Shown one piece after another: positions 22,609 to 47,224 of a stretch of DNA of 64,000 nucleotides; the stretch's first letter is position 1; every line of letters begins with the position of its first letter. The stretch is from an uncultured bacterium. GTDB lineage: Bacteria > Bacillota > Clostridia > Oscillospirales > Oscillospiraceae. The DNA lies in the NCBI GenBank assembly GCA_949293165.1, contig CASFCW010000003.1, positions 21,580 through 85,579 of the forward strand, read 5' to 3'. The notes beneath the pieces were generated by a model that saw only the letters and a list, made by a program, of their open reading frames with translations, searched no databases and was not told the origin of the DNA. A program made the position numbers and the translations under genes.

Positions 22609-23505
22609 ATGGAATTGAGACAAATCAAGGGGAACACCTGGGCCCTGGAGGGCATTGAGCTGATTCCCCTGTATAAGCTGGATGGCAAGCGGTGCATTTT
22701 GCTGGACACCGGCCTGGCCCAGGAGGGGGAGGCCCTGCTGGCCGCTTTGGAGGCCCACGGGCTCACCCCGGCGGGGGTGCTGTGCTCCCATGCCCATGTG
22801 GATCACGCCGGCAACAACCGGGCGCTGCAGCAGAAATTCGGCCTGCCGGTGGCCATGACCGCCAGCGAGGCTGGGATGTGCGCCAGCCTGCTGACGCTGA
22901 AGTGCTATTTCCTGCTGCTCTCCCCAGACACCGTGGCCCGGGAGGCCGGGCACCTGGTGCACCGCCCCGACGTCATGATTCCCGAGCGGGACGGCGTCTT
23001 TTCCTTCCTGGGGACGGAATTTCAGATCCTGTATACGCCCGGCCATTCCGCCGGGCACATCGCCATTACAACCCCCGACCGGGTATGCTACGTGGGGGAC
23101 GCCCTGCTGTCCTGGGAGCAGATGGAGGCCAAGCTGCCCTACAGCCTGTGCCACCGCATGGCCAAGGACAGCCGGGAAAAGCTGCGGCAGGTGGACTGCG
23201 ACCTGCTGCTCATGGCCCACCGGGGCGTCATCTCCCGGGACGGGCTGGACGCGCTGATTGACGCCAACGACGCCCTGATCCAGCGGCGGGCAGGCGAGAT
23301 TCTGGAACTGGTGACCCGGCCCATGACCGTCAGCGAAATCAGCCAGACCGTATGCGCCAAATACAAGCTGCTCACCTCCAAGCCCAGCCGTGCCCTGCGC
23401 TTTGAGCGCAACATCCGCTTTTATTTGGAGTATCTGGTCGACCACGGAGACCTGACCATGGAAACCGCGTCCGGTATTGCGGTTTACCACCGCTCCGCTC
23501 CCTAG
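22609..23505 (+). CDS. MBL-fold metallohydrolase
   Basis: 298 residues with the metallo-beta-lactamase fold. The metal motif is CSHAHVDHAGNN (HxHxDH), with YTPGHSAGHI, VGDALLS and a late MAHRGVI histidine. The last 70 residues form a helical/winged-helix-like tail (ITQ-like LELVTRPMTVSEISQTVCAKYKLL), as in MBL proteins of the LACTB2/RNase Z-like group that carry a C-terminal DNA/RNA-binding domain. Function unknown. Its ribosome site AAAAGGAG overlaps the end of mnmG, so the two are cotranscribed. Confidence 0.82.
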   Translation: MELRQIKGNTWALEGIELIPLYKLDGKRCILLDTGLAQEGEALLAALEAHGLTPAGVLCSHAHVDHAGNNRALQQKFGLPVAMTASEAGMCASLLTLKCYFLLLSPDTVAREAGHLVHRPDVMIPERDGVFSFLGTEFQILYTPGHSAGHIAITTPDRVCYVGDALLSWEQMEAKLPYSLCHRMAKDSREKLRQVDCDLLLMAHRGVISRDGLDALIDANDALIQRRAGEILELVTRPMTVSEISQTVCAKYKLLTSKPSRALRFERNIRFYLEYLVDHGDLTMETASGIAVYHRSAP

Positions 23506-23557
23506 CCGGGCGGCCCGCGGCTTCCGCCGGAACCGCAGCGCCGGTCCGTTTTCCCTC

Positions 23558-23586
23558 TTTACAGATTGGTCAATTTCCTATAGAAT
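23558..23586 (+). promoter_or_regulatory. Promoter of the c-di-GMP signalling operon
   Basis: TTTACA (23558-23563) and TAGAAT (23581-23586) with a 17-base spacer. The leader of about 105 bases before the diguanylate cyclase gene contains no riboswitch class I recognise. Confidence 0.55.
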
Positions 23587-23697
23587 GGGAATTGTAGGTT
23601 ATATCTTCCACCGGCTTTCTGCGGGTGCCGCCCCAGTGAGGGGGTGTCCGCCTTTCTGTGATGATCTCCCAGTAATCCAGAATCAGGAGGTGAGCCG

Positions 23698-24870
23698 ATG
23701 CCTGAATTTATGAACTGCAGTCTTTCCCCCATCAACATCCCTTCCGCTCTGATCGCCAACGGCTTGGGGGTCTGCCTGATGCTGGTGATTCTTTTCAGCA
23801 GCTACCGGCAGGCCAGGTTCATTACCCGTGACGGACGGATGTTCATTTGGATGTGTTATCTTTGTCTGGCCCTTTGCCTGCTGGAAGCGGTGGGCTTTCT
23901 CCTGGACGGCAGTATGTTTCAAGGCGCACGGCCAATTATCATTCTCAGCAGCGTATCCCTGTATTTTCTCAGCTCAGCCATCGCATTTTTGTGGATCTGT
24001 TACGTTGACTACAAGCTGTTCGGCGACCACGACCGCCTGCGGTACCTCTATTCCTGGGCGTCCATCCCGGCGGTGCTGGTTTGCCTGATGGCCTTTGCAA
24101 ACCTGTTTTTCCCCGTATTCTTCCAGGTGGATTCCAACAACGTCTACAGCCGCACCCCCCTGTTTTTCCTGCCCTGTCTGGTCTCGTTCTGTTACCTGAC
24201 CTATGGTGCGGTGCTGGCACGTTATCATCGGTCACGGGTGGACCGGTATCTTTTCATGCCCGTCATGACCTTTGTCATTCCCATCTACATCGGCGGCGTC
24301 ATCCAGGTATTTTTCTATGGCCTGGCTCTGATTTGGGCGGCCACCGCCCTGGGGCTGACCTTCCTTTACATCAACCTGCAAAACGAGGAGACCTTTCTGG
24401 ACCCCCTGACCAATCTATACAACCGAAATTATCTGTTCCATTACATCAGCCGCCTGATCCGCCGGGAAAGGGGCACCATCTCCCTGATCGGGATTCTGCT
24501 GGACGTGAACGGGTTCAAGCAGATTAACGACATCCACGGGCACATCCAGGGTGACCAGGTGCTGCAGCGGCTGGGCGATTTGCTGCTGCGGACCGTGGAT
24601 CGGGGCGTGGTGTTCCGGTACGGCGGAGACGAATTTCTGATTCTGATAGAGAACGCCTCCCTTGCAGACGCCCACAGCCTGATTTCTGCCATCCAGGCGG
24701 AGCTGCAGCGCAGCAACGACCGGGGGGATTTCCCCAGCTCCATCTCCTTTTCCGCCGGCACCGCGGTGCTGACCGGGTCGGACGTGTACCATTTCTTCCA
24801 GGAAATGGACCGCAATATGTACAGCGAGAAACGGCTTTTCCACCGCTCAAAGGCAGTTCCTCCACAGTAA
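23698..24870 (+). CDS. Membrane diguanylate cyclase (GGDEF)
   Basis: Makes cyclic di-GMP from two GTP. It has 390 residues. About seven membrane helices fill residues 17-222 without a known sensor family, followed by a GGDEF domain starting at DPLTNLYNRNYL (235). The active-site motif RYGGDEF (309-313 for GGDEF) is intact, with LLDVNGFKQIND as the metal/GTP loop. An RxxD is present at 298-301 but is 7 rather than 5 residues from GGDEF, so the canonical inhibitory I-site may be absent. The ATG follows CAGGAGGTGAGCCG. It is the first gene of the signalling block that leads into the c-di-GMP riboswitch at 28964. Confidence 0.93.
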   Translation: MPEFMNCSLSPINIPSALIANGLGVCLMLVILFSSYRQARFITRDGRMFIWMCYLCLALCLLEAVGFLLDGSMFQGARPIIILSSVSLYFLSSAIAFLWICYVDYKLFGDHDRLRYLYSWASIPAVLVCLMAFANLFFPVFFQVDSNNVYSRTPLFFLPCLVSFCYLTYGAVLARYHRSRVDRYLFMPVMTFVIPIYIGGVIQVFFYGLALIWAATALGLTFLYINLQNEETFLDPLTNLYNRNYLFHYISRLIRRERGTISLIGILLDVNGFKQINDIHGHIQGDQVLQRLGDLLLRTVDRGVVFRYGGDEFLILIENASLADAHSLISAIQAELQRSNDRGDFPSSISFSAGTAVLTGSDVYHFFQEMDRNMYSEKRLFHRSKAVPPQ

Positions 24871-24911
24871 CCCTTATCCTTCCGGGATATAGATTGGAGC
24901 GCGCCATCCAT

Positions 24912-27503
24912 ATGAAAACTCGGATTCCAACCCACACCCACAGCATCACGCTGAATATCGCGATTCTGGTTGCCGTGGCCATTTTGCTTATGTCCTCCAT
25001 TGTCCTGGTGCGGGACAAGCTGCTGCAAAACGCCCAGGAGCTGGGCAACGCCCTGGCCCGCAGCTATGCCGTGGAGGAGGAAACTACCATTCAAACCCTT
25101 GTCCGGGAGGTGGACCTGGTCAGCCAGTATGTGGCGGAGTTCAGCGTCAATTCCGGCGATCTGGAGCCGATTCAGGCATGGCTGAGCAGCCATTTCTCCA
25201 GGTTGATGCAGGTCATGGCCGACGACGGAACCACAGGCACCATGCTCGACTTTTATGCTGTAGTGGGCGGGCAGATTGTGGCGGTGAATCCCTGGGTGGG
25301 CGACCAATCCTATCCATATCAGAACACCGATTGGTACCGCCAGGCCATCGAAGCCGGCGGCGAGGTTGTGTGCGGCGAGATATACACCGACGCTGTTACC
25401 GGCGAGCTGGTGTTCACCATCTCCAAGGCGCTGAATGACCGGGGGGACGTTTTCGCCCTGGACGTCTATGTCCAGCGGGGCGTATTCCACCACAACAGTT
25501 CCACCCTTCCGGCGGACTGCTCCTACTACCTGTGCGACTCCACCGGCAAGCTCATCTACTCCATTACCAAGTGGGACGTGAGCCAGGAGGATCTGCAGCG
25601 GTATGCCGACTATATGCTGGGCGGAATCGCTGACGGCTCCCTGCTCTCCTATGATTCCTCCTTTGACGATCTGGACGGCATTCCCCGTGGAGTCTATTAT
25701 CAGACCATGAGCAACGGCTGGATTGTCATGCTGACCATCCCCATCAACTCCATCCTCATGGGGGACCAAAACGCCATTGTAAACATTTTCGCCGGCCTGG
25801 CCATCATGATGTTTCTGATCCTGGGCATGGCCACCATTACAGACATCTTCCGCAGCCGGCAGATCAAGCGGGCGGATGACACCGCCCATATGCTGGGCGA
25901 CTCCTTCTATGCCATCTACCACGTGAATTTTGTGGATGGGTACTATGAGCGTTTCAAATCCAGCGATGATCTGGAGGCTGATCTGCCGCCCAAGGGGCCC
26001 TACTCCCAGCTGCTGCTGGCCATCTCTTCCGTGGTACATCCGGACACTTTCCATATGTTTGAGGAAGGGTTCTCTCTGGACAGCATCCGTCAGCGGGTGG
26101 ATCAGAACATTCCTGACTACGGAGGCGACTATCTCCGCCGGTTCGGGGAGGATTATCGTTGGGTCAATGTACGTACTCTTTACGATCCCGCTCTGATCCC
26201 CAACGAGGTCATTCTCTGCTTCCGGGATGTAGACGCGGAAAAGCGCCGGGACGTGCAGCACACCATCATACTGCAGGAAGCGCTGGACGCCGCGCAGAAG
26301 AGCACCAAGTCGAAAACAGAATTTTTCAGCCGCATGTCCCACGACATGCGCACCCCCCTGAACGCCATCATCGGCTGCTGCTCCCTGGCGGAGAAAAGCT
26401 GCTCCGCCGACGACAGGGAAAAGGTGCGCGACTACCTGAAAAAAATCGAATTTGCCGGCAACCAGCTGCTCAGCCTGATTAACGACATCCTGGAGCTGTC
26501 CAGGATGGAGGCGGGGAAAAACAACCTGGATGTGTGGGAGCTGGATTTGAAGCAGCTGCTTTGCGACACCGCCGATATTTTCCAGATCCGCGCCCAGAGC
26601 GAGGGAAAGGAACTGTCCGCAAGCATCGCCTTTCAGGACTGCATTGTGTCGGGAGACGAAAAGAAGATCAGCCAGATTATTAACAACCTGCTGTCCAACG
26701 CCATCAAATACACCGATCCCGGGGATCAGATTCGCCTGGAGGCCAGGCAGTTTAACTTCCAGGCCCACAGCAAGTACCAGATCACGGTGGAGGACACCGG
26801 CATTGGGATGTCCCCCGGCTTTTTGGAGCATCTCTTCGACCCTTACTCCCGTGAGACCGCCTTCTCCTCCCACTCCACCGTGGGCACGGGTCTGGGTATG
26901 GCCATCGTAAAAAGCCTGGTGCAGCAGATGAGCGGCGAGATCTCCGTGGAGAGCCAGCTGGGCAAGGGCAGCCGCTTTACCATCACGCTGCCCCTGCAGT
27001 CCCTGCACCGCCAGGCGCCCGCCTCCCCCCAGGCTTTGCCCAATTCCACCCCCATGGACTGGTCCGGGCGGACGGTGCTGCTGGCGGAGGACAACGAGCT
27101 CAACCGGGAGATTTTGCAGGATATTCTCCAGCAGTTCGGCATGGAGGTGCTGTGCGCCGTCAATGGCCGGGAAGCGGTGGAGCAGTTCCGCCACTCTCCC
27201 CCCTTCTCCATCGACATCATACTGATGGATATGCAGATGCCGGTGATGGACGGCTGCCAGGCGGCGGAGGCCATCCGTCAGCTGGACCGAGCGGACGCCC
27301 GGGACATCCCCATTGTGGCGGTAACCGCCAACGCCTTTGCCGAGGACATTGACCGCACCACCAAGTCCGGCATGAACGACCACATCTCCAAGCCCATCAA
27401 CCGCGCCGCATTGCAGGAGGCCATGCAGCGGCTGATGGTGGAGTGGGACGCCCTCCGGACGGCCCGGACAGATAAAAATACGGACGGAGGGGAGCCATGT
27501 TGA
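24912..27503 (+). CDS. Hybrid sensor histidine kinase with receiver domain
   Basis: A membrane sensor of 863 residues. A first helix at about 12-33 and a second at about 285-305 enclose an extracytoplasmic dCACHE-like sensor (YPYQNTDWYRQA; VCGEIYTDAVTGELVFTISKAL). A linker with PAS-like features follows, then HisKA with H477 (FFSRMSHDMRTPLNAIIG), HATPase_c with N-box INNLLSNAIKYT, DTGIGMSPG and GTGLGMAIV, and a C-terminal receiver with D773 (LMDMQMPVMDG) and lysine in ISKPI. ATG 24912 is chosen over a TTG 18 bases upstream, since it gives a standard basic N-terminus. It overlaps the next gene by 7 bases. The ligand is probably small and extracellular, as for other dCACHE kinases. Confidence 0.94.
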   Translation: MKTRIPTHTHSITLNIAILVAVAILLMSSIVLVRDKLLQNAQELGNALARSYAVEEETTIQTLVREVDLVSQYVAEFSVNSGDLEPIQAWLSSHFSRLMQVMADDGTTGTMLDFYAVVGGQIVAVNPWVGDQSYPYQNTDWYRQAIEAGGEVVCGEIYTDAVTGELVFTISKALNDRGDVFALDVYVQRGVFHHNSSTLPADCSYYLCDSTGKLIYSITKWDVSQEDLQRYADYMLGGIADGSLLSYDSSFDDLDGIPRGVYYQTMSNGWIVMLTIPINSILMGDQNAIVNIFAGLAIMMFLILGMATITDIFRSRQIKRADDTAHMLGDSFYAIYHVNFVDGYYERFKSSDDLEADLPPKGPYSQLLLAISSVVHPDTFHMFEEGFSLDSIRQRVDQNIPDYGGDYLRRFGEDYRWVNVRTLYDPALIPNEVILCFRDVDAEKRRDVQHTIILQEALDAAQKSTKSKTEFFSRMSHDMRTPLNAIIGCCSLAEKSCSADDREKVRDYLKKIEFAGNQLLSLINDILELSRMEAGKNNLDVWELDLKQLLCDTADIFQIRAQSEGKELSASIAFQDCIVSGDEKKISQIINNLLSNAIKYTDPGDQIRLEARQFNFQAHSKYQITVEDTGIGMSPGFLEHLFDPYSRETAFSSHSTVGTGLGMAIVKSLVQQMSGEISVESQLGKGSRFTITLPLQSLHRQAPASPQALPNSTPMDWSGRTVLLAEDNELNREILQDILQQFGMEVLCAVNGREAVEQFRHSPPFSIDIILMDMQMPVMDGCQAAEAIRQLDRADARDIPIVAVTANAFAEDIDRTTKSGMNDHISKPINRAALQEAMQRLMVEWDALRTARTDKNTDGGEPC

Positions 27504-28579
27504 CCACCCAAACCGGAGCCACCCTCCTCATCGTGGATGACGAGGAGATCAATCAGGCGATTTTGTCCAATATTTTCTCCTCCGAGTACCAGATTCTCAC
27601 CGCCTCCGACGGCCAGGCCGGTCTGGACGCCATCCTGGCCAACCGCGAGACGCTCAGCGCCGTGCTGCTGGACGTTGTCATGCCCCGCATGACAGGGCTG
27701 GATGTCCTCCGCCGCCTGGACGAGCTGGGGCTGATGCAGGTGATCCCAGTATTTCTGATTACCGCGGATATCAACAACGATACCATGCGCCAGGCCTATG
27801 CCATGGGGGTTATGGACGTCATTTTCAAGCCCGTGGTCCCCTATGTCGTCCGCCGCCGGGTCAACTCCATCGTGGAGCTGTTCCAGGCCAGAAAGCAGCT
27901 GGGCGCGGAGGTAATACGCCAGCGGGATCAGCTGCTGCTCCAAACGCAGAAGCTGGCGGAGCTGAGCATGGGGATGGTGGAGGCCCTGTCCACCGCCATC
28001 GAGTTCCGCAGCGACGAGTCCGGCGAGCACGTCCGCCGAATCCATGACATCACGTACTACCTGCTGCGCAGCACGCCCCTGGGCGCAGGGCTGACCGAGG
28101 GGGAGATCCGGCTCATCGGCATCGGCGCCATCACCCACGACGTGGGCAAAATCTCCATCCCCGACGCCGTTTTGAACAAGCCGGGCCGGCTGACCCCCGA
28201 GGAATTTGAACTGATGAAATCCCATACGGTAAAGGGGGCGGAGCTGCTGGCCAAAATCCCCCAAATGCGGGACCACCCCGCCTTTCCGTATGCGTATGAC
28301 ATCGCGCTGCATCACCACGAGCGATGGGACGGGAGAGGGTATCCTGAGGGGCTGGCCGGCGACCAGATCTCCATCTGGGCCCAGGTCGTCTCCCTGGCGG
28401 ATGTGTATGACGCGCTGGTAAGCAGGCGGTGCTACAAAGACGCCCTGCCCCCGGACACCGCCGTGCGCATGATCCTTAACGGGGAGTGCGGCGCATTCAA
28501 CCCCCGGCTGTTGGACTATTTCCGGCAGGCCGAGCCTGTGCTGAGGGCATTTTACCACCCCACTGAGGAAGGAGGATGA
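27497..28579 (+). CDS. Response regulator with HD-GYP phosphodiesterase domain
   Basis: 360 residues. The receiver domain (1-125) has the acidic pair DDEE and phosphoacceptor D59 in LLDVVMPRMTG, plus FKPV. Residues about 165-345 are an HD-GYP domain with H214-D215 (THDVGKISIPD), LHHHERWDGRGYPEG (GYP motif intact) and SLADVYDAL. HD-GYP enzymes hydrolyse c-di-GMP (some prefer cGAMP) to GMP or pGpG. Phosphorylation by the preceding hybrid kinase, perhaps through the HPt protein next to it, would control degradation. It overlaps the kinase gene by 7 bases and is 6 bases from the HPt gene. Confidence 0.94.
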   Translation: MLTTQTGATLLIVDDEEINQAILSNIFSSEYQILTASDGQAGLDAILANRETLSAVLLDVVMPRMTGLDVLRRLDELGLMQVIPVFLITADINNDTMRQAYAMGVMDVIFKPVVPYVVRRRVNSIVELFQARKQLGAEVIRQRDQLLLQTQKLAELSMGMVEALSTAIEFRSDESGEHVRRIHDITYYLLRSTPLGAGLTEGEIRLIGIGAITHDVGKISIPDAVLNKPGRLTPEEFELMKSHTVKGAELLAKIPQMRDHPAFPYAYDIALHHHERWDGRGYPEGLAGDQISIWAQVVSLADVYDALVSRRCYKDALPPDTAVRMILNGECGAFNPRLLDYFRQAEPVLRAFYHPTEEGG

Positions 28580-28585
28580 GCGGCG

Positions 28586-28942
28586 ATGGATGACGCTGTG
28601 AAACGCAGGCTGGTGTCCGCGGGGATCGACGTGGACGAGGCCCTTGACCGGTTTATGGGCAGCGAGGCGCTGATGGTCAAATATCTGGCCCGCTTCCCCC
28701 AGGACCCCAACTTTTCCCTGATGGAACAGGCCATCCGGGCCGGCGACGCCGCCCAGGCCTTCACCGCCGCCCACACGCTGAAAGGAGTGACAGGCAACCT
28801 GTCCATCCACGCGCTGTACCAGCCGCTGAGCCAGGCGGTGGAAGATCTCCGGCGCGGCGATCTGGCCGGGGCAGCCGGTCGGATGGAGGAGCTGGAGGCG
28901 CTGTACCGCCAGGTATCCGACGCGCTGGAGGGGCTGGGATAA
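28586..28942 (+). CDS. Stand-alone HPt phosphotransfer protein
   Basis: 118 residues, all helical. The phosphoryl-accepting histidine is H63 in AAHTLKGVTGNL, the classic HPt motif. It can carry phosphate between the receiver of the hybrid kinase and the HD-GYP regulator, completing a four-step relay (H477, D773, H63, D59). The start is 8 bases from GGAGG. It ends only about 22 bases before the c-di-GMP aptamer, so the riboswitch is probably transcribed as part of this operon. Confidence 0.92.
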   Translation: MDDAVKRRLVSAGIDVDEALDRFMGSEALMVKYLARFPQDPNFSLMEQAIRAGDAAQAFTAAHTLKGVTGNLSIHALYQPLSQAVEDLRRGDLAGAAGRMEELEALYRQVSDALEGLG

Positions 28943-28963
28943 GCCCTTTCCCCCCTTCCCACA

Positions 28964-29045
28964 ACCCAATGGGCAAACCCGCCGAAAGGCGGGGACGCAA
29001 AGCCATGAGTCTACGGCAGGCAACTGCTACGATTGTCAGGCTGCA
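28964..29045 (+). ncRNA. Cyclic-di-GMP-I riboswitch aptamer (GEMM-I)
   Basis: The sequence follows the class-I c-di-GMP aptamer closely. GGGCAAACC (28971-28979) is followed by a P2 hairpin CGCC-GAAA-GGCG carrying the GNRA tetraloop, then GGGACGCAAAGCC, the P3 arm with its tetraloop-receptor side GAGTCTACGGC, and closing GTCAGGCTGC. The order and the invariant GACGCAAAGCC and GCAAACC blocks match the Vibrio cholerae Vc2 aptamer. The exact 5' end of P1 is uncertain by several bases. It lies in the gap between the HPt gene and the VTC gene. Confidence 0.95.
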
Positions 29046-29087
29046 AAGACCTTCCCGCTGAGCCGCGGAGGTTTTTGCAGCTTTTTT
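29040..29087 (+). terminator. Terminator forming the riboswitch expression platform
   Basis: GCTGCAAA (29040-29047) pairs with TTTGCAGC (29074-29081), with further pairing of ACCTTC and GGAGGT inside, then TTTTTT (29082-29087). The 5' arm overlaps the last bases of the aptamer (GGCTGC), so a ligand-bound aptamer would compete with the terminator. That predicts transcription ON when c-di-GMP is high. Confidence 0.85.
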
Positions 29088-29101
29088 AATGAGGTGTACC
29101 C

Positions 29102-29797
29102 ATGAACGAGGTGTATCGCCAGGAAAAAAAGTACCTGATGAATCTGGAGGCGCTGCAGCGGCTGTCCCTGGTGCTGGACCCGGTAATGATGCAGGACCCC
29201 CACAACGGGGCCCGGGGCTACCGGGTGCGCTCCCTGTATTTCGACACCATCAACGACCAGGACTTCGAGGACAAAATCGAGGGGGTGGAGCTGCGGCGGA
29301 AGATCCGCCTGCGGATCTACAGCCCTGGGGACGACTTCGCCATGCTGGAGATGAAGCAGAAGCAGGGAGCATACCAAAAAAAGCGTTCCCTCCGTCTCCC
29401 CCGGGCAGACGCCCTGGAGCTGGCGGCCGGGCGTTACGACTGTCTGCTCCGCAGCAGCAGTCCCTTCGCCCAGGAATGCTACGGGCTGATGCATATGCAG
29501 TGCTACCGGCCCAAAACCGTGGTGGAATACCTGCGGAAGGCCTATATCGCCAAGGAGAACAAAATCCGGATTACCTTTGACCACGAGATCCGCGCCACGG
29601 AAACCAACGTCCAGCTGTTTGACCCCCATCTGAACCTGTACCCCGTGCTGGACCCCTTCCATGCCGTGCTGGAGGTGAAGTACAACGGCTTTCTCCTCAG
29701 CTACATCAAGGACCTGGTAGGCGCGGCCAACCGGTCTGAGCTGTCCGTAAGCAAATACTGTCTGGCCAGGAGCGCCGGGCTCCACTTCGCGCTGTAA
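29102..29797 (+). CDS. VTC-domain polyphosphate polymerase-like protein
   Basis: 231 residues of the VTC (TTM-fold tunnel) family, whose yeast member polymerises phosphate from ATP into polyphosphate; bacterial members occur beside cotH and DUF4956 genes. The basic tunnel residues are visible on successive strands: RQEKKY, YRVRSLYFDT, LRRKIRLRIY, LEMKQK, YQKKRSLRL, VEYLRKAY, KIRITFD and VLEVKYNG, ending SKYCLAR. No membrane segment or signal is present, so it is cytoplasmic, facing the DUF4956 membrane partner. It is the first gene after the c-di-GMP switch, 15 bases from the terminator's T run. The product could be polyphosphate or another phosphoanhydride donor; this is unproven. Confidence 0.9.
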   Translation: MNEVYRQEKKYLMNLEALQRLSLVLDPVMMQDPHNGARGYRVRSLYFDTINDQDFEDKIEGVELRRKIRLRIYSPGDDFAMLEMKQKQGAYQKKRSLRLPRADALELAAGRYDCLLRSSSPFAQECYGLMHMQCYRPKTVVEYLRKAYIAKENKIRITFDHEIRATETNVQLFDPHLNLYPVLDPFHAVLEVKYNGFLLSYIKDLVGAANRSELSVSKYCLARSAGLHFAL

Positions 29798-29846
29798 TCC
29801 CCAAAACTCCGGCTTTCAGAAATCAACCAAACCGGGAGGAACAACC

Positions 29847-30545
29847 ATGAGAAAAATGCTGCTGGAGCTGTTTGAAAGCACCGGGCAACTGGATATGCGG
29901 AGCGTCATCCTCCGAATGCTGGTGGCCACCGTCATCGCCTTTTTTATCTACCTGTCCTACATGCTGTCCCACCAGGGGAGCATCTACAGCAAGAAATTCA
30001 ACGTCTCCCTGATGGCGCTGACCGTCATCACCACGGCTGTGATGATCGTCATTGGAAATAACATCGCCCTCTCCCTGGGCATGGTGGGCGCTTTGTCCAT
30101 CGTGCGTTTCCGCACCGCCATCAAGGACTCCCGGGACACGGTGTATATTTTCTGGACCATTGTCACCGGTATCTGCTGCGGCGCCGGCGACTTCATGGTG
30201 GCCGGCATCGGCTGCGCCTTTATCTTCCTGGTGCTGCTGATTTTCGGCCGGATCAAAAACGACAACCGGATGCTGCTGATTGTCCGCGGCTCCCGGGCCA
30301 GTGAGGAACGGATTGAGGCCCTGATCTTCCAGTATTTCACCCGCAAAGCGGTTCTTCGGGTGAAAAACACCACGGAAAGCAGCGTGGAGCTGATTTACGA
30401 GCTGAGCAAGCGCACCATGGACCGGGCTGCCGGCGCCCCCGCCGGCGCCGCGGGGAAGCGGAAAAGCATCACCGATTCCCTGTATGAAATCGGGGGCATT
30501 GAGTATTGCAACATCGTGGCCCAAAATGACGAAATCAGCAGCTGA
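29847..30545 (+). CDS. DUF4956 membrane protein
   Basis: 232 residues with about four membrane helices between residues 20 and 135, including the family signature SLGMVGALSIVRFRTAIKDSRDTVYIFW, and a cytoplasmic C-terminal domain of about 95 residues. DUF4956 proteins are encoded with VTC and CotH proteins in many bacteria and are thought to act as their membrane partner, perhaps as a channel or transporter; the activity is not known. It starts 49 bases after the VTC gene with GGGAGGAACAACC upstream. Confidence 0.9.
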   Translation: MRKMLLELFESTGQLDMRSVILRMLVATVIAFFIYLSYMLSHQGSIYSKKFNVSLMALTVITTAVMIVIGNNIALSLGMVGALSIVRFRTAIKDSRDTVYIFWTIVTGICCGAGDFMVAGIGCAFIFLVLLIFGRIKNDNRMLLIVRGSRASEERIEALIFQYFTRKAVLRVKNTTESSVELIYELSKRTMDRAAGAPAGAAGKRKSITDSLYEIGGIEYCNIVAQNDEISS

Positions 30546-30572
30546 GCCGCTGCTGTCCGGGAGGTGGCACAA

Positions 30573-32039: not shown

Positions 32040-32060
32040 TCGGGAAAGGGGGCGGACGCC

Positions 32061-34310: not shown

Positions 34311-34337
34311 CCGGCGCGTCACAAGGAGAGATGCCCC

Positions 34338-35438
34338 ATGCGGATTGAACTGATGATTTATATTTACGGCGCGGTGTGCGCCAGCATGATCCTGTTCAAT
34401 CTGGTTTACAACCTGCTGCTGACCAGGAGCCAGCCCCGCATGGAGCGGCGCTGCCGCCGGATCAAGGCCAGCGTGGAAGCTCAGCTTCAGGAATGCCGGG
34501 AGACGGGGCGTATCGACCCGGCCCGGCTCACCCTAATGCGCCGCCGGCTGCGCCGGGTCAATAACCTCATCGCCTTTCACCGTGTCCTGGAGGAAATCTT
34601 CGAAGCCCGGCCGGAGGAGCGCGCCGACTATCTCCACCAGATTCAGGGCGTGATGCTGTATCTGGCGCTGGTGTACCGGAAGCGGGACGACATGCAGGCG
34701 GCCTACTTCGCCTACTTCCTTTCCCGGAACATGAGCCTGCGTCAGATGCCCATTGACTCCCTCCAGGACATTATGCTGGATTACATCGGGAAGCGCAACC
34801 TCTACTGCCGGGTCAACGCCCTAACCGCCCTGTACGATTTCGGCACCGCGGAGCGGGTGGCCCAGGCCCTCCGCATTCAGGACGACGGCGCCGTCTTTCT
34901 CCATGAAAAAATCCTGACCGAGGGGCTGCTCTCCTACCGCGGGGATCATGACGCGCTGATCCGCATTCTGTGGAGCCGCCTTTACACCTACTCCGTCCAC
35001 ACCAGGCTGGCCATTTTGAACTACATCCGCTTCCGCTCCGGCGGCTTTTGCCGGGAGATGTTCTCCATCTTGCAGGACGGCAGGGAGGACAAGGAGCTTC
35101 GCCTTTCCGCCATCCGCTATTTCGGCAAGTATGTCTATCCCCCCGCGCTGAATCCCCTGCTGACCTTTCTGGCCGACCCCTCCCCCGAGAATTGGGAGTA
35201 CGCCACCGTGGCCGCCTCCTCCCTGGCCAATTACTCCGGGGACCGCGTCATATCCGCCCTGACGGAGGCCCTGCACAGCGGCAGCTGGTATGTCCGCTCC
35301 GCCGCCTCCCAAAGTCTGGAGCGCCACCACGTGGATTACAGCGACCTGATCGACGTGGTGGCCGGGCAGGACCGCTACGCCAGGGAGATGATTACCTACC
35401 GTCTGGAATCCCGAAAGCTGCGGAAACAGGAGGTGTAA
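34338..35438 (+). CDS. HEAT-repeat membrane-anchored protein
   Basis: 366 residues. One N-terminal membrane helix (MIYIYGAVCASMILFNLVYNLLL) is followed by a basic helical region and, from about residue 150, tandem helical pairs resembling HEAT repeats (CRVNALTALYDFG; LRLSAIRYFGKYVYPPALNPLLTFL; ATVAASSLANYSGDRVISALTEAL; VRSAASQSLERH). Such scaffolds bind protein partners; with a single N-terminal anchor and no cleavage site the repeats probably lie in the cytoplasm. It is 27 bases after the glycosidase gene and 6 bases before the GT2 gene, so a role as adaptor for the glycosyltransferase is plausible but unproven. Confidence 0.75.
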   Translation: MRIELMIYIYGAVCASMILFNLVYNLLLTRSQPRMERRCRRIKASVEAQLQECRETGRIDPARLTLMRRRLRRVNNLIAFHRVLEEIFEARPEERADYLHQIQGVMLYLALVYRKRDDMQAAYFAYFLSRNMSLRQMPIDSLQDIMLDYIGKRNLYCRVNALTALYDFGTAERVAQALRIQDDGAVFLHEKILTEGLLSYRGDHDALIRILWSRLYTYSVHTRLAILNYIRFRSGGFCREMFSILQDGREDKELRLSAIRYFGKYVYPPALNPLLTFLADPSPENWEYATVAASSLANYSGDRVISALTEALHSGSWYVRSAASQSLERHHVDYSDLIDVVAGQDRYAREMITYRLESRKLRKQEV

Positions 35439-35444
35439 CCCGCC

Positions 35445-36848
35445 ATGATGGATGCATTCAAACTGTTTTTTGACTACGTGGGGGCATTTTTTATCCTGTA
35501 TATGATCGGGTACGCCAGCTTCCTGTTCTTGTCGGTGACGGTTGGCTCCTCTGTGCTCTACCAGCTGAAGCAGCGCAACAAGATGAAAAACGAGCTGCAA
35601 AGCGAATATTATGTCCCGGTTTCCATCCTGGTGCCCGCCTACAACGAGGCGGTGACCATTGAGTCCAGCATCCGGTCCCTCCTGGCCCTGGAATACAAGC
35701 TGTATGAGATCATTGTGGTGGACGACGGTTCCCAGGACGACACCTCCCGGATCGTCTGCGAGGCCTTCCGGATGCAGCAGATCAGCCGCCCCATCCAGCG
35801 CAAAATCCCATGCCAGCCGGAGGAATTTGTCTGTGAAAGCCACGAGTGGGGCGTCCCCATCACCTTGATCCGCAAGAAAAACGGCGGCAAGGCGGACGCC
35901 CTGAATATGGGCATTAACGCGTGCAGGTATCCCTACTTTATCTGCATGGACGCCGACTCCGTGTTACAGTACGATTCCCTGGAAAAAATTGTCCGCCCCG
36001 TATTGGAGGAGGGCAACATCGTGGCTGTGGGGGGCGCCGTCCGCCCCTGCAACGGGGCGGAGATCCAAAACGGGCGTGTGATCTCCTACCACATGCCGGA
36101 CCGCATAATCCCCTGTATGCAGGTGCTGGAGTACGACCGTTCCTTCCTGGCGGCCCGAATCCTGTTTGACAAGTTCAACGGCAGCGTCATTATCTCCGGC
36201 GCCTTCGGCCTGTTTAAGAAAAGCACCGTCATCGACGCGGGAGGCTATGACCCCACCACCATGGGGGAGGATATGGAGCTGGTCATCAAGCTGCATGTGT
36301 TCTGCCAGGAGCACAGCATCCCGTACCGTATGCGCTACGCCACCGACGCCATCTGCTGGACGCAGGTGCCGGAACGTCTGAAGGATCTGCGCCGCCAGAG
36401 GCGGCGGTGGCACATCGGCCTGTTCCAAAGCATGTTCCGCCACAGGAAGGTGTTCCTCAACTCCAAATACGGGCTTGTGGGCATCGTCTCCTACCTGTAT
36501 TTCCTGCTCTATGAACTGCTCTCCCCCTACATTGAGCTGTTCGGACTGTTTACCGTCTTCCTGGCCTTTGCGGTGGATCTGATTAACGTCCCGTTCATGC
36601 TTCTGTTTTTCGCCATCTACGTGGTCTATTCCGCCATATTGTCCCTGACCGCCTTCTTTGCCCGCATCCACACCATCGACTTGAAGCTGACGGTGACCGA
36701 CGTTCTGAAGGCGGTGGGCCTGTGCGTGGCGGAAATATCCTGCCTGCGCTTTATCCTGGCCTGGACCCGGGCCACCGCCCTGATCGGGTATCAAAAGAAA
36801 AAACACAGCTGGGGCACCATCCAGCGGCAAGCAATCAAATTTAAGTGA
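35445..36848 (+). CDS. Processive family 2 glycosyltransferase (BcsA/PgaC-like)
   Basis: 467 residues. One membrane helix near the N-terminus (about 10-38), a GT2 domain, then four or five helices after residue 340. All motifs of processive inverting synthases are present: VVDDGS (D93-D94), MDADS (D169, D171), TMGED (D276, putative base) and QRRRW (318-322) that holds the acceptor chain. Enzymes of this set make cellulose, poly-GlcNAc, hyaluronan or similar beta-linked polymers and push them through their own channel. There is no PilZ domain here or elsewhere in the window, so c-di-GMP control seems to act on transcription rather than on the enzyme. Product sugar unknown. Confidence 0.93.
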   Translation: MMDAFKLFFDYVGAFFILYMIGYASFLFLSVTVGSSVLYQLKQRNKMKNELQSEYYVPVSILVPAYNEAVTIESSIRSLLALEYKLYEIIVVDDGSQDDTSRIVCEAFRMQQISRPIQRKIPCQPEEFVCESHEWGVPITLIRKKNGGKADALNMGINACRYPYFICMDADSVLQYDSLEKIVRPVLEEGNIVAVGGAVRPCNGAEIQNGRVISYHMPDRIIPCMQVLEYDRSFLAARILFDKFNGSVIISGAFGLFKKSTVIDAGGYDPTTMGEDMELVIKLHVFCQEHSIPYRMRYATDAICWTQVPERLKDLRRQRRRWHIGLFQSMFRHRKVFLNSKYGLVGIVSYLYFLLYELLSPYIELFGLFTVFLAFAVDLINVPFMLLFFAIYVVYSAILSLTAFFARIHTIDLKLTVTDVLKAVGLCVAEISCLRFILAWTRATALIGYQKKKHSWGTIQRQAIKFK

Positions 36849-36864
36849 GATGGAGGGTTTTGTT

Positions 36865-37374
36865 ATGACGTTGGATCATCTGAAGAAAGGGTTCTGGGGC
36901 TACCAGAAATCCAGTGTATACGAGTACGTCACCGCTCTGGAAGGAGACTTTTCCCAAAAGCTGATGGAGCAGGAGGCCAAGGCCCGGGACAGCGAGACGC
37001 AGTACCAGGAACGGGTGCGCCAGCTGGAGGAGGAGCTGACCACGCTGCGCCAGCAGTACGAGGCCCAGCAGGCCGAGCAGCGGATGATCTCCTCTACCCT
37101 CATTGAGGCGAAGAAGTACGCCGAAACCCTGAAGCAGGAGGCAGACGCCGCCGCCCAGGCGGAGCGGCAGGCCTGGGAGAGGGAGCTGGAGCAGATGCAC
37201 AAGGCTCTCAACCAGTACCGTCTCCAGGTCCGCACCCTGCGGGAGCAGTTCTCCACCATGCTCCAGGCCCTGGATGACCAGGTGGAGGACTTCGACCAGC
37301 AGGCCCAGGCCACCGCGTCCGACTGCCCCGGCCGGAACATGAATCTGTTCCACCGGAAGCAGGAGGAAGCATGA
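36865..37374 (+). CDS. Coiled-coil protein, DivIVA-like N-terminus
   Basis: 169 residues. The short N-terminal segment LKKGFWGYQKSSVYEYVTALE resembles the start of DivIVA/GpsB proteins, which bind membranes at poles or septa, followed by about 110 residues of charged heptad-rich coiled coil. No membrane helix. ATG 36865 is 7 bases from GGAGGG; the ATG at 36850 overlaps that site and is rejected. Its stop overlaps the start of the EAL gene (ATGA). It could place the polymer machinery in the cell, which is inference from the fold only. Confidence 0.7.
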   Translation: MTLDHLKKGFWGYQKSSVYEYVTALEGDFSQKLMEQEAKARDSETQYQERVRQLEEELTTLRQQYEAQQAEQRMISSTLIEAKKYAETLKQEADAAAQAERQAWERELEQMHKALNQYRLQVRTLREQFSTMLQALDDQVEDFDQQAQATASDCPGRNMNLFHRKQEEA

Positions 37375-39239
37375 CAGCCGAGGGAACGCCGGTGAGCGAA
37401 ACTATTTTGATCTATGTGGCTGGGAACCCGGACGCCTATCCCATCGAATACTACGACGAGCAGACGCAGTCCTACCAGGGCGTCATCCCCCAGCTCCTCA
37501 GCCGCTTTTCCAGCGCCAGCGGGTACGAAGTCGTCTATTACCAGCCCGGTGAACGGGACGCCCGCGCCCACCTGGGCAATAACAACCAGGTGGACCTGCT
37601 CTCCGGCTATTTGGAGGGGGAGTATGTCCCCAGCAGTGTGGCCTCCATCCCCCTGTTTTCCGCGCATACGGATGGGGAGACCCAAACTTACTGCATCCAC
37701 CTGACCCGTGCCGCGCCGGCGCAGCTGCTCTCCGATTTGCAGGCCTTTTCCCAGGCCGTCCCCCAGGAGGAGATCAGCGGAATACTCATCGACACCGCCG
37801 CCGCCCGTACCGGCGGTCTCTCCCCCGGCATGGCCGGCACGCTGCTTGTCGCCGCCGTTCTGCTGGCCTTTGGGGTTTCACTGGTGATCCGCCGTTACCG
37901 CAAGCGCCTGTCCCAGGCCCTGGCGGCCGCCCAGTCCGACCCTGTAACCGGCGTCGGCAACCTGACCTACCTGGATGAGCAGTACAGGCGGCAGATCATC
38001 CCCCGGAACCGGATTTTATACCACCTGGTCTACTTCTTTGTGGACACGGACCATCTGCGTCGGATCAGCGACAGCCAGGAGACGGACGACTTTCTCCGGT
38101 ACTGTGCCGCTATGCTTACCGAATATCTCGAGCCCGGCGATATTCTGGCCCGGGTCTCCGACCACGGCTTTGCCATGTTCCGCATGAAGGAGGATGCCGC
38201 CCAGGTTTATGCCTGGGCCGCCACGGTGGTGGGGAAGATGCAATCCTACCCCCAGCTGTACTCCAAGCCCTTTGAAATCAGCGCGTCGGCCGGCATCTAC
38301 TCCCTGAAGGCCCGGGAAGGGCCTCTGCCCGACCTGATATTCACCGCCTCCCAGGGCGCCTTCTCCGCCGCCCGGGAGAATATGGACTACGTCATCTGCA
38401 CCCCCGAGATGCAGCAGCAGCTGGCCCAGGAAAAATTCCTCCAGGCCAGCATCGAGCAGGCCTTCGCCCGGCGGGAATTTAAGCTGTACATCCAGTTTTA
38501 CGTGGACGCCATGACCGGGGAAATTGTAGGCGGCGAAGCCCTGTCCCGCTGGAACCATCCCCAGCAGGGCGTGCTGATGCCCGGCGTATTCGTCCCGCTT
38601 ATGGAGCGGGAGCGGCTGATTAGCCGCCTGGATTATTACTGCCTGGAGGAGTCCTGCGCCTTCCTCCAGCGGCTGGTAGAGTATGGGATTGACGCGTTTT
38701 TCATCTCCTGCAACTTCTCCCGGGAGACCTTCTCCGCCCCGGACTTTTCCTCCCGGGCCAAGGACATTATGGAGCGGTACCGCTTCCCCAGGGAACTGCT
38801 GATTTTTGAGATTACGGAAAGCGCGTCGGTGCAGCGGGTCGTCCAAATCCGCCAGAACATCATCGCCCTGCGGCAGTACGGCATCCGCGTGGCCCTGGAT
38901 GACTTCGGCGAAGGGCTGACCTCCTTCTATGACCTGCATAAATACCCCATCGACGGCATTAAGCTGGACAAGGGGTTGATTGATTACACCCTGACCCCCA
39001 GCGGCGCCGCCATCTTGAAGGCCATGGTCCAGGTGGGCCACGAGCTGAACATGACCATTCTGGCCGAGGGCGTGGAATCCCAGCAGCAGGCGCGTGCCCT
39101 TCAGGAGATCCGGTGCGACGTGATCCAGGGCTTCTACTTCTACCATCCTCTTCCCGATTGGGAGGCCGAGCAGAAAATCCTGGCCCAGTTTGCCTCCCGC
39201 GACCATTCCGCGGAGGAGCAGACAAAAAACCACCCATGA
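37371..39239 (+). CDS. c-di-GMP phosphodiesterase: degenerate GGDEF plus intact EAL
   Basis: 622 residues. Residues about 10-145 look like a truncated type-3 solute-binding (PBPb) sensor domain, then one membrane helix (about 155-175), a GGDEF domain in which the active motif is replaced by ARVSDHGFAMF and is therefore probably inactive, and a complete EAL domain. EAL is E389-A-L; the other catalytic residues are present in SCNFSRE, IFEITES, ALDDFGEG, GIKLDK, LAEGVES and QGFYF. It should hydrolyse c-di-GMP. Odd points are the missing signal peptide before the sensor domain and its location in the very operon that c-di-GMP switches. It overlaps the coiled-coil gene by 4 bases. Confidence 0.92.
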   Translation: MTAEGTPVSETILIYVAGNPDAYPIEYYDEQTQSYQGVIPQLLSRFSSASGYEVVYYQPGERDARAHLGNNNQVDLLSGYLEGEYVPSSVASIPLFSAHTDGETQTYCIHLTRAAPAQLLSDLQAFSQAVPQEEISGILIDTAAARTGGLSPGMAGTLLVAAVLLAFGVSLVIRRYRKRLSQALAAAQSDPVTGVGNLTYLDEQYRRQIIPRNRILYHLVYFFVDTDHLRRISDSQETDDFLRYCAAMLTEYLEPGDILARVSDHGFAMFRMKEDAAQVYAWAATVVGKMQSYPQLYSKPFEISASAGIYSLKAREGPLPDLIFTASQGAFSAARENMDYVICTPEMQQQLAQEKFLQASIEQAFARREFKLYIQFYVDAMTGEIVGGEALSRWNHPQQGVLMPGVFVPLMERERLISRLDYYCLEESCAFLQRLVEYGIDAFFISCNFSRETFSAPDFSSRAKDIMERYRFPRELLIFEITESASVQRVVQIRQNIIALRQYGIRVALDDFGEGLTSFYDLHKYPIDGIKLDKGLIDYTLTPSGAAILKAMVQVGHELNMTILAEGVESQQQARALQEIRCDVIQGFYFYHPLPDWEAEQKILAQFASRDHSAEEQTKNHP

Positions 39240-39253
39240 TGAGGAGGCCTGTT

Positions 39254-41290
39254 ATGACAATCCGTACCCTCTGTGCCGCGCTCGCCCTGCTTCTGGCGTG
39301 CGCCGGGTGCAGCGCCCCCCCTGCCGGCACGCCGGCTCAGACGGACGCCCCCGCCGCCCTGGCGCCCCACCCCCTGCCCGTCAAGGATGTGGCGGTCAAC
39401 CCGTATATGGCAAACAGCGATAACTCCATCCACAACGACGCCTACGCCACCGACGTTACCGACGCGGTGGCCCCCCTGGGTATCTTCTCCATCCTATCCA
39501 CCTCCATAGAAACCCAGAACATCCACGCCCCTTCCGCCGCCTTTTACGACAGCAGGGGGAATGCCATTACCCCCTTCCTGGGGGGCGTCTCCATTGTGGA
39601 TATGGATGGGCCCGTCATCACCCGGCTGGGCTCCTTTGTCCCCGCCCGGGATGACAGCAGCTATTCCTTCCAGATCTCCTATTCCTTTGTGGACCGGGAC
39701 GACCGGATTATCGCCCCCACCTCCCACGGGCACATTGTGGTGCTCCACACCATGGACGACCAGGGGAACGTCCTGCCCGTCTTTGAGAAGATCCTGGATA
39801 TCGACCTGGTGCAGGCTGCCGTGGAACAGCTGGGAGACGCTGTAGACCAGCGCCTGCTGAGCATTGTGTACGACTACCAGGGCAACCTGTGGTTCACCAC
39901 AGGGGGCTTCCGCATCTACCCGGACCGCGACCCCGCCGGCTTCCTGGGCTACATTTCCCGGGAATACATGCAGCAGCTGGAAACCGGTCAGGCGGTGCCG
40001 CTGGATGGGAACGTCTTTTTCTACCCCCTGGCTCAGGGGGAAAGCGCGGAAAACGGCATCGCCGCCAACCAGGACGGAGCCGTTATTCTGACCAACCAGG
40101 CCTGCTATATGCTGGCCGCTGACAACGGCGTGTCCGTCACATGGCGCACGCCCTATGAAAGCGCAGGGGCCAACGACGCCCAGGAGGGCTCCGGCTACAC
40201 CGGCGGCGGGCTGGCCTGGGGCAGCGGCACCAGCCCCACATTAACCGACGAGCTGGTGCTTTTCACCGACAACCAGGACCCCATTTGTCTGCTGGCCCTC
40301 TCCTCTAAAACCGGCGAAATCCTGGCCCAGATCCCCGTGCTGGAGACGCTGGGGGATGATGTCCCTGTCTCGGTGGAGAATTCCATCCTGGTATACGACC
40401 CGGGCGACGGCTCAGCGTCGGTTATCGTGTGCAACTGGTTCGGCGCAGGCAATTCCGGCCTGGCCCAGCCCGGCGCCAATTCCGCCATTCAGTCCTACGA
40501 CAATATCTACGACGCCAACTGGATGGCCCAGGGCAACGCCTACATCGCCCCCGGCGTGGAACGGGTGGACTTTACCCCCACCGAAACCGGGTATGCGGCC
40601 GAAAAGGTGTGGAGCCGGCAGGACATCCGGGAAACGGCTATGATTAAGCTGAGCACCGCCACCGGCTACCTGTACGGCTACTGGCAGGACATGGACAGCG
40701 GCATGTGGCGGTACGAGGCTTTGGATTTCCAAACCGGCGAAACGGTGCTGACCATGGATGTATCCACCCAGCCCGGCTATAACAACCTGGCGGTGGGGGT
40801 GATTGCCGACCCCGCCGGGAACGGCCTGTACTGCCCCACAGGGGCCATGGAAATGGTGTGCTGGCGGGATGAGCTGGCCTACCTGCCGGACAGCCCGGCC
40901 AAGGCCATCCCGGCGGAGAATACCACCCGCGTCCGCCTGTCGGCGGACGCCCTGGGCGCCGGTTACCGCCCGGCGGGGTACCAAATGACGGTTACCGTGG
41001 ACAATCTCTCCGGGGAACAGCCCCTGGCGCTGCGGGTCAACGGCCTGTCCGGCCTGCCAGACAGCTACACCCTCCTGTACCTGGACCAGACCGGCGCATG
41101 GCGGGAGCTGCCCCAGCCCTGGAGCCTGTGCGCCTCTGGCGGCGGTGCTCTGGCGGAGGGGCAGCCGTTGACCCCCGAACAAATCTATGAAATCCGCCTT
41201 CCCGTCTCCTGCCAAGCCCAATGGAACCGTTCCAGCCTGGAAAGTCAGGGCCAGTTCACCCTCATTCTGGCGGAGCGTACCGGCAGCTGA
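39254..41290 (+). CDS. Large lipoprotein, probable beta-propeller
   Basis: 678 residues starting at the ATG 7 bases after GAGGAGG. A signal ending in a lipobox (LLLACAGCSAPP) predicts a lipoprotein with cysteine near residue 19. The body is beta-rich, with repeated patterns of the PQQ/WD propeller kind (GAVILTNQACYMLAADNGVSVTWRTPYES; PICLLALSSKTGEILAQIPVLE; TGYLYGYWQDMDSGMWRYEALDFQTGETVLTMD), but no family is certain. The last 110 residues look like a separate beta domain. Being the last gene of the riboswitch operon, outside the membrane, it might hold or recognise the polymer. Confidence 0.72.
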   Translation: MTIRTLCAALALLLACAGCSAPPAGTPAQTDAPAALAPHPLPVKDVAVNPYMANSDNSIHNDAYATDVTDAVAPLGIFSILSTSIETQNIHAPSAAFYDSRGNAITPFLGGVSIVDMDGPVITRLGSFVPARDDSSYSFQISYSFVDRDDRIIAPTSHGHIVVLHTMDDQGNVLPVFEKILDIDLVQAAVEQLGDAVDQRLLSIVYDYQGNLWFTTGGFRIYPDRDPAGFLGYISREYMQQLETGQAVPLDGNVFFYPLAQGESAENGIAANQDGAVILTNQACYMLAADNGVSVTWRTPYESAGANDAQEGSGYTGGGLAWGSGTSPTLTDELVLFTDNQDPICLLALSSKTGEILAQIPVLETLGDDVPVSVENSILVYDPGDGSASVIVCNWFGAGNSGLAQPGANSAIQSYDNIYDANWMAQGNAYIAPGVERVDFTPTETGYAAEKVWSRQDIRETAMIKLSTATGYLYGYWQDMDSGMWRYEALDFQTGETVLTMDVSTQPGYNNLAVGVIADPAGNGLYCPTGAMEMVCWRDELAYLPDSPAKAIPAENTTRVRLSADALGAGYRPAGYQMTVTVDNLSGEQPLALRVNGLSGLPDSYTLLYLDQTGAWRELPQPWSLCASGGGALAEGQPLTPEQIYEIRLPVSCQAQWNRSSLESQGQFTLILAERTGS

Positions 41291-41319
41291 TGGCCTGGCG
41301 GGAAATCTCACACAAACTG

Positions 41320-41350
41320 CGGCCCCGGCGCGCTTTTTGCGCCGGGGCCG
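41320..41350 (+). terminator. Terminator at the end of the c-di-GMP-controlled operon
   Basis: CGGCCCCGGCGC (41320-41331) and GCGCCGGGGCCG (41339-41350) form a 12-bp stem with loop GCTTTTT, followed by TTT. The stem is very strong although the T run is short. Confidence 0.7.
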
Positions 41351-41417
41351 TTTGCCGCCTTTCCCCTCCCCGCACCTGGATACAACGGCAGGAAGATTAT
41401 CGGATCAAACATGTTTC

Positions 41418-41448
41418 TTGCGCCGCCCCCCGTAAAATATGGTAAAAT
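41418..41448 (+). promoter_or_regulatory. Possible promoter of the 41510 gene
   Basis: TTGCGC (41418-41423) and TAAAAT (41443-41448), spacer 19 bases, which is longer than ideal. Confidence 0.35.
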
Positions 41449-41509
41449 AGCCTTATACACCACAATACACCGCTTGCCTGCGGCAGGCGGAAGGAAAGGG
41501 AGAAATTGC

Positions 41510-47129: not shown

Positions 47130-47152
47130 ACATTTTACCCCCTGTTACAACG

Positions 47153-47187: not shown

Positions 47188-47224
47188 TCGGCTCACTGAT
47201 CCACTGGTTTCCCGAAATCAGGAC

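Follow-up and report, generated by a model that had tools for sequence, protein, structure and literature searches.

A candidate c-di-GMP-activated exopolysaccharide locus with a riboswitch leader in an uncultured member of the Oscillospiraceae

We analyzed a 64,000-nt stretch of DNA (hereafter the window) from an uncultured member of the Oscillospiraceae (assembly GCA_949293165.1, contig CASFCW010000003.1, positions 21,580 to 85,579), in which a class I cyclic di-GMP (c-di-GMP-I) riboswitch lies between genes for enzymes of this messenger and a six-gene core encoding, in order, VTC, DUF4956, CotH, glycoside-hydrolase-like (GH), HEAT-repeat and family 2 glycosyltransferase (GT2) proteins. With a probability of about 0.72, we read it as a c-di-GMP-activated exopolysaccharide locus. 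Support comes from the computed overlap of aptamer and terminator: the 5' arm of an intrinsic terminator falls within the aptamer's 3' end at 21 of 21 operon loci with the riboswitch under a looser rule and at 16 of 17 under a strict rule, the 17th having a shorter U-tract, and the same overlap was found in 1 of 23 other c-di-GMP-I aptamers. It also comes from conservation: all six core genes lay on one strand in 57 of 108 loci, and they kept the window order in 57 of 57, gene order in relatives having been chosen beforehand as a test of a preliminary description of this DNA. The parts of the locus are as follows.

23558–23586, + strand: promoter-like site (TTTACA-17-TAGAAT, 10/12 matches), about 110 nt 5' of the GGDEF gene
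23698–24870, + strand: membrane diguanylate cyclase, GGDEF intact (Pfam, motif)
24894–27503, + strand: hybrid sensor histidine kinase with HisKA, HATPase and receiver domains and a weak dCache match (Pfam)
27497–28579, + strand: receiver-HD-GYP phosphodiesterase (Pfam; HD and GYP motifs intact by eye)
28586–28942, + strand: Hpt phosphotransfer protein (Pfam; HxxKG intact)
28962–29048, + strand: c-di-GMP-I aptamer, G at model position 11 (Rfam RF01051)
29039–29087, + strand: intrinsic terminator, a hairpin at 29039–29082 (-27.8 kcal/mol) followed by a U-tract (sequence and fold)
29102–29797, + strand: VTC polyphosphate-polymerase domain protein (Pfam, fold)
29847–30545, + strand: DUF4956 membrane protein (Pfam)
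30564–32039, + strand: CotH-family kinase-like protein, N-terminus hydrophobic (Pfam)
32094–34310, + strand: TIM-barrel glycoside-hydrolase-like protein with C-terminal beta domains (AlphaFold2/Foldseek)
34338–35438, + strand: HEAT-repeat protein, N-terminus hydrophobic (Pfam)
35445–36848, + strand: processive-type GT2 synthase, with DDG, DAD, GED and QRRRW intact (Pfam, motifs)
36850–37374, + strand: coiled-coil protein of 174 amino acids (aa), without a Pfam family
37371–39239, + strand: phosphodiesterase with a degenerate GGDEF domain (SDHGF) and an EAL domain, eight catalytic columns intact (Pfam, alignment)
39236–41290, + strand: lipoprotein of 684 aa, its start overlapping the EAL stop

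The draft genome comprises 2.19 Mb, is split over 127 contigs and is 95% complete. Between the promoter-like site at 23558 and position 41290 all the named genes lie on the + strand with short gaps, and Pfam confirms the GGDEF, hybrid kinase, receiver-HD-GYP, Hpt, VTC, DUF4956, CotH, HEAT, GT2 and GGDEF/EAL assignments among the window proteins; in the whole window the single match at Rfam gathering scores is the c-di-GMP-I aptamer. The parts named in the preliminary description thus stand at their place and strand, with some amendments: its sensor kinase is of the hybrid type, carrying a receiver of its own, its EAL phosphodiesterase, EAL domain intact, also carries the degenerate GGDEF domain, and its gene list had omitted the HEAT-repeat, coiled-coil and lipoprotein genes.

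In the mechanism that we propose, the leader RNA before VTC would fold the terminator when c-di-GMP is low, and transcription would stop. When c-di-GMP is high, the bound aptamer would keep the terminator's strand, and polymerase would enter VTC-DUF4956-CotH-GH-HEAT-GT2 and then the coiled-coil, EAL and lipoprotein genes, with the aptamer in the window probably gating read-through between two halves of one operon. GT2 would make and extrude a polymer that the glycoside hydrolase would trim, and VTC, DUF4956 and CotH would supply a phosphate-related modification. The upstream GGDEF cyclase would raise c-di-GMP, a hybrid kinase-Hpt-receiver-HD-GYP phosphorelay would set its removal, and the dedicated EAL phosphodiesterase near the operon end would lower it again as a delayed negative feedback.

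The aptamer scores 83 bits against a gathering score of 35 (E 7.7e-15) with the RF01051 covariance model, no non-standard pair being marked, and is the sole c-di-GMP-I match found in the draft genome. In the window, the terminator's 5' arm consists of the final 10 nt of the aptamer match, the strand that closes the aptamer's long helix. Since the terminator draws on the 3' strand of the aptamer itself, its formation and ligand binding should be mutually exclusive, and c-di-GMP binding should therefore switch the operon on; the riboswitch should thus be an ON switch, a direction that we infer from its anatomy. The control aptamers were 30, one each from the best-scoring genomes rather than a random draw, of which 7 with short flanks were dropped to leave 23; a terminator was seen in 10 of these 23. 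A sole aptamer in the genome, an order kept in 57 of 57 loci and a position common to relatives together indicate an arrangement beyond chance.

The loci come from a GT2-alignment scan of genome contigs, which gave 79, together with a further genome search; 108 of 113 were examined, L032 (on the contig of L045) and L209, L214, L221 and L222 (duplicates of L065, L063, L067 and L071) having been dropped before the counts, and counts of flanking genes cover the loci whose sequence extends far enough past the GT2 or VTC gene. Among the carriers are records named Flavonifractor, Evtepia, Intestinimonas, Anaerotignum, Faecalicatena, Gordonibacter and Coriobacteriia, as well as a Planococcus plasmid (Bacilli). 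In a sample of the class, this type of GT2 occurred in 30 of 391 genomes and 24 of 223 genera; setting the window genome aside, 13 of the other 29 carry the complete core on the fetched stretch, and some of the remaining loci are cut by contig ends. The core's distribution across gut Clostridia is wide but patchy. Several of the remaining loci belong to a sister operon type (L227, L229, L230, L232–L235 and L237), in which GT2 is accompanied by GH and/or HEAT homologues and VTC, DUF4956 and CotH are absent; it sometimes adjoins GGDEF genes, and L229, L230 and L232 gave no Rfam match.

The riboswitch is itself shared with relatives. A c-di-GMP-I match was present in 22 of 50 operon genomes and lay 44–113 nt 5' of the VTC match in 17 of them, being the genome's only such match in 16 of the 17. 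One genome is counted twice among the 50 (G008 and L045 share a contig), L034 (G045) lacks its VTC end, and the search used stricter filters, under which weak matches may be lost. Based on the class sample, which was chosen by GT2 alone, the aptamer was found in 7 of 14 complete operons (6 of 13 plus the window). On a VTC+DUF4956+GT2 tree of 46 rows, the riboswitch trait required 7 changes versus 14.1 with shuffled labels, which points to an inherited trait with some gains or losses. The idea that the riboswitch was unique to the window arose from the first five loci scanned, which had none, and was dropped when the wider scan found others. As a replacement, c-di-GMP-II was matched in 1 of 49 genomes, not that of the window, and seven riboswitch-less loci had no other regulatory RNA upstream at Rfam gathering scores.

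Several findings weigh against the proposed c-di-GMP-activated exopolysaccharide locus. No adjacent aptamer was found in 33 of the 50 operon genomes, which makes c-di-GMP gating a trait of part of the family. A close GT2 relative (52–74% identical) occurred in only 4 of 36 congeners, and none of these 4 operon carriers has the riboswitch. A simple terminator scan, which sees short uninterrupted stems only, missed the hairpin at 29039–29082 because its stem is interrupted. Finally, model position 11, which we take to be the ligand-contact G (G20 of Vc2), is G in 15 of 21 operon aptamers including the window's and A in the other 6 (L038, L061, L077, L215, L217 and L219). A G-to-A change at this position marks variants that bind or prefer cyclic GMP-AMP, and ligand choice may vary within this aptamer family.

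Upstream of the riboswitch, a hybrid kinase with its own receiver, an Hpt protein and a receiver-HD-GYP protein read together as a phosphorelay. The kinase's dCache match is below the Pfam cut-off, and the GGDEF protein at 23698–24870 shows no RxxD I-site at the spacing usual for that motif. Of the 53 loci with enough sequence before VTC, 16 have a same-strand GGDEF gene in the preceding 1.2 kb; among the upstream cyclases within this distance, with open frames of 296–772 aa, the GGDEF motif is kept in 16 of 17, the seventeenth (L077) having a broken frame. An Hpt homologue was found in 30 of 49 genomes, as a single copy in 25 and no more than about 10 kb from the operon, on either side, in 13; the window Hpt has one match in its genome. 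From these neighborhoods, the operon tends to be accompanied by the kinase-Hpt-HD-GYP set. The preliminary description had proposed a self-contained circuit, and production, sensing and removal of c-di-GMP are indeed encoded together here. Self-containment does not hold, for the window genome has GGDEF domains in four proteins (two at the locus) and EAL domains in two (one at the locus), one of the two further GGDEF proteins being the genome's only other EAL protein, and among relatives the core occurs without the riboswitch in the 33 genomes noted above and without a GGDEF match on the stretch examined in 33 of 57 six-gene loci. No PilZ effector was matched in the window genome. The locus is likely a main output of the genome's c-di-GMP, though not self-contained. 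Elsewhere in this genome, on contig 27 (L238, 1753–7249), a second GT2 gene lies near a large membrane GGDEF protein, possibly a yda/pss-like exopolysaccharide locus. Because the aptamer/terminator design is common to 21 loci and GGDEF (16/53), EAL (32/52) and Hpt (13/30) genes recur nearby, the comparison suggests that the link between the c-di-GMP enzymes, the riboswitch and the operon is selected.

How far the two halves share a transcript depends on what precedes the aptamer. In the window it starts 19 nt 3' of the Hpt stop without a promoter match before it, which together point to gating of read-through within one operon, and a scan of 23400–41500 gave no + strand promoter-like site between 25700 and 35470. 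On balance, a single transcript from the promoter-like site at 23558, gated mid-way, appears somewhat probable for the window; the site is weak alone, 7 such sites occurring in the region on both strands versus 6.3 expected. L051 likewise has no promoter match before its aptamer, L070 and L055 have only poor ones, and in all four loci the gap from the upstream stop codon to the aptamer is at most 24 nt; read-through is possible for these three as well. On a combined reading, a same-strand gene ends within 50 nt before the aptamer in 13 of 21 riboswitch loci, with Hpt genes in three and GGDEF genes or, in L077, a GGDEF fragment in the others; an automatic longest-open-frame rule alone placed a same-strand gene within 50 nt upstream in 10 of 21 versus 0 of 23 controls.

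Against read-through as a general mechanism, 11 of the 21 riboswitch loci have a promoter match (chance frequency at most 0.02) in the 90 nt that precede the aptamer, nine of them with a -10 end no more than 9 nt from it, and read-through control at all loci was rejected on these grounds. The same sites favor the strongest alternative, in which the window aptamer has its own promoter, missed by the scan in a GC-rich genome, the signaling and polysaccharide genes are separate neighboring operons, and the circuit amounts to c-di-GMP control of one of them. We consider this a serious possibility that falls short of an even chance, given the missing or poor matches and short gaps at the four loci above and the promoterless stretch from 25700 to 35470.

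The mid-gated operon that we favor for the window would carry its own brake near its end. Of the 52 loci with enough sequence after GT2, 32 have an EAL gene in the following 1.5 kb, comprising 18 of 18 riboswitch loci versus 14 of 34 others (Fisher p 1.3e-5, uncorrected for kinship). Tempering this association, five independent pairs on supported branches gave 2.4 the same way, 0.0 opposite and 2.6 with no difference (median p 0.25), and five pairs are too few to test it. In an alignment of open frames longer than 520 aa (L034, L049, L066 and L077 left out), the eight EAL catalytic columns (E, N, E, D, D, K, E and Q) were intact in the window and in 38 of 43, three of the five exceptions running off contigs, and the GGDEF domain of the same protein was degenerate in 43 of 43. 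A regular-expression test had suggested that one clade has lost intact EAL motifs, a reading dropped when the alignment showed the expressions to be too strict. By eye, the N-terminus of the EAL protein at 37371–39239 resembles an extracytoplasmic solute-binding domain followed by a transmembrane helix, with no signal peptide evident at the called start.

The simplest reading of its intact catalytic columns and position suggests delayed negative feedback through the EAL protein. It could instead act mainly as a c-di-GMP receptor that activates the synthase. YdaK, a degenerate GGDEF protein of Bacillus subtilis, offers a parallel. The uniformly degenerate GGDEF domain, the lack of a PilZ match in the window genome and the use of YdaK as a protein receptor at the B. 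subtilis exopolysaccharide operon (PMC7064775; here and below, published systems are described from the available portions of the cited papers) are in line with a receptor, which we nonetheless hold doubtful while all eight EAL columns are kept in 38 of 43 proteins, with three of the five misses at contig ends.

That the operon makes a polysaccharide is inferred from its synthase and accessory proteins. In NCBIfam, GT2 is nearest PgaC/IcaA (TIGR03937, poly-N-acetylglucosamine synthases), at 148 bits and below the cut-off of 422.3. The protein called a glycosidase in the preliminary description matches GH72 at 21 bits, below the Pfam cut-off of 25.9, but for its AlphaFold2 model (738 aa; predicted local distance difference test, pLDDT, 88.6) Foldseek finds TIM-barrel glycoside hydrolases, with GH157, GH2 and GH5 enzymes as best matches and Gel4 also in the list, at low whole-chain template-modeling scores (0.20–0.33 of the query) that give clan-level hints only. 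Glu190 is kept in 46 of 51 homologues and Glu377 in 38 of 51, which makes it likely that the protein is enzymatically active. VTC (Pfam, 141.9 bits) gave no direct sequence match to PDB entries and was for this reason judged by its tunnel fold and conserved basic and acidic residues: its AlphaFold2 model (pLDDT 93) has the eukaryotic polyphosphate polymerase 3g3r as best Foldseek match (E 1.2e-14), and VTC models as a polyphosphate polymerase, with R6, E8, K10, R43, K67, R69, R71, E83, K85, R145, R156, D160, E191 and K193 among the columns kept in at least 95% of 47 sequences. CotH (Pfam, 185.6 bits; marginal against PDB sequences) keeps D332 and D354, presumably its catalytic acidic residues, in at least 95% of 47. 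No Pel-named family appeared among the Pfam and NCBIfam matches of the operon proteins, no search aimed at PelF or PelG having been made.

A bolder proposal, unlikely when taken with all its steps, would have VTC make polyphosphate from ATP in the cytoplasm, DUF4956 pass it across the membrane and secreted CotH use it to phosphorylate the nascent polysaccharide where there is no ATP. The unit would be under the control of a c-di-GMP RNA switch that, in this genome, lies within a single operon, with the enzymes of the messenger on one side and the matrix genes on the other. CotH, known as a spore-coat protein kinase (PMC7112168), might hint at modification of the spore coat or envelope, rather than a polysaccharide matrix, as the product. 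We find this quite improbable, considering that GT2 is nearest PgaC/IcaA, albeit below cut-off, and that in non-sporing streptococci related accessory genes stand beside the Pel genes, with aggregation reduced when the CotH or MgtC/ACT gene is mutated (PMC12345266).

Least probable of all is that c-di-GMP binding promotes termination in this polysaccharide operon, as in Cd1, the flagellar OFF switch of Clostridioides difficile (PMC6366702): 9 of the 23 control aptamers do have a terminator wholly 3' of the aptamer, but at 21 of 21 loci here the terminator recruits the 3' strand of the aptamer, so that coexistence of the two is not expected, and Bc2 of Bacillus thuringiensis, a c-di-GMP-I riboswitch with a terminator, was shown by experiment to be an ON switch (PMC4933901).

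Among the remaining genes of the window, the coiled-coil protein at 36850–37374 may serve membrane placement of the synthase. Its N-terminus (MTLDHLKKGFWGYQKSSVYEYV) looks by eye like what we take to be the DivIVA/GpsB motif, and Pfam gives no match. For the lipoprotein at 39236–41290, neither Pfam nor NCBIfam gave a match, and tblastn found none among the loci scanned. Further downstream, the + strand has very long open frames at 46778–52360 (1860 aa, no Pfam match) and 54017–58717 (1566 aa), with long opposite-strand frames over both, and the protein at 59175–61100 has a marginal cellulase (GH5) match (23.9 vs 23.5 bits).

The preliminary description knew of no described system with this composition, a claim that cannot stand: in gene order and products the core corresponds to NELoc-2 of Clostridium perfringens, and Gram-positive pel operons carry its accessory trio. 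NELoc-2 (CP4_0458-0468; PMC2879425) has VTC, a "tubulin/FtsZ" gene, which we take for DUF4956, CotH, a 685-aa protein, HEAT (377 aa) and GT2 (466 aa) in the same order as the window, a likeness of order, size and product name. Its own features are VTC and a neighbor occurring twice around a resolvase, with a sigma factor and a predicted cell-wall protein in front, and the available text of the report mentions no c-di-GMP gene or riboswitch in that locus. It was interpreted there as chitin synthase plus tubulin genes, not as a polysaccharide operon (PMC2879425), and two of its genes were later reported to be lower in vivo (PMC4983038). On the Planococcus maritimus plasmid NZ_CP059541.1, an annotated polyphosphate polymerase, DUF4956, CotH, hypothetical, HEAT and glycosyltransferase gene follow in order, with no annotated c-di-GMP enzyme within 10 kb in a gene table that is incomplete and has several "hypothetical" entries. 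We found no function assigned to the six-gene core and, in the openly licensed literature, no report linking it to a c-di-GMP riboswitch. The shared ON-type riboswitch would offer a ready means to switch the core on and find its polymer, would recast NELoc-2, until now described as a marker of necrotic enteritis, and would open to experiment what CotH, DUF4956 and polyphosphate polymerase do alongside polysaccharide synthases.

Gram-positive pel operons share the trio of cotH, polyphosphate polymerase and DUF4956 with the window core (PMC7112168, PMC12345266) and include a glycoside hydrolase in Streptococcus intermedius and a dual cyclase/phosphodiesterase gene in bifidobacteria. Mutation of the S. 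intermedius CotH gene, or of a four-transmembrane MgtC/ACT gene that we take for the DUF4956 member, alters Pel levels and reduces aggregation (PMC12345266). The pel polymer comes from pelDEADAFG, whereas the window has one GT2 with a HEAT protein under riboswitch control. The ydaJKLMN operon of B. subtilis is likewise a c-di-GMP-responsive Gram-positive exopolysaccharide operon with a cognate cyclase; it uses the protein receptor YdaK, and VTC, DUF4956, CotH or a riboswitch are not mentioned in the available part of that paper (PMC7064775). Bc2, which precedes the B. thuringiensis cap gene, resembles the window in combining c-di-GMP-I with a terminator and in being ON by read-through (PMC4933901), yet it controls an adhesin gene from a 5' untranslated region, while the window aptamer is intercistronic and precedes a polysaccharide operon. 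The kind of system is thus known, a c-di-GMP-controlled exopolysaccharide operon, and it is its own composition and its RNA receptor that set this locus apart.

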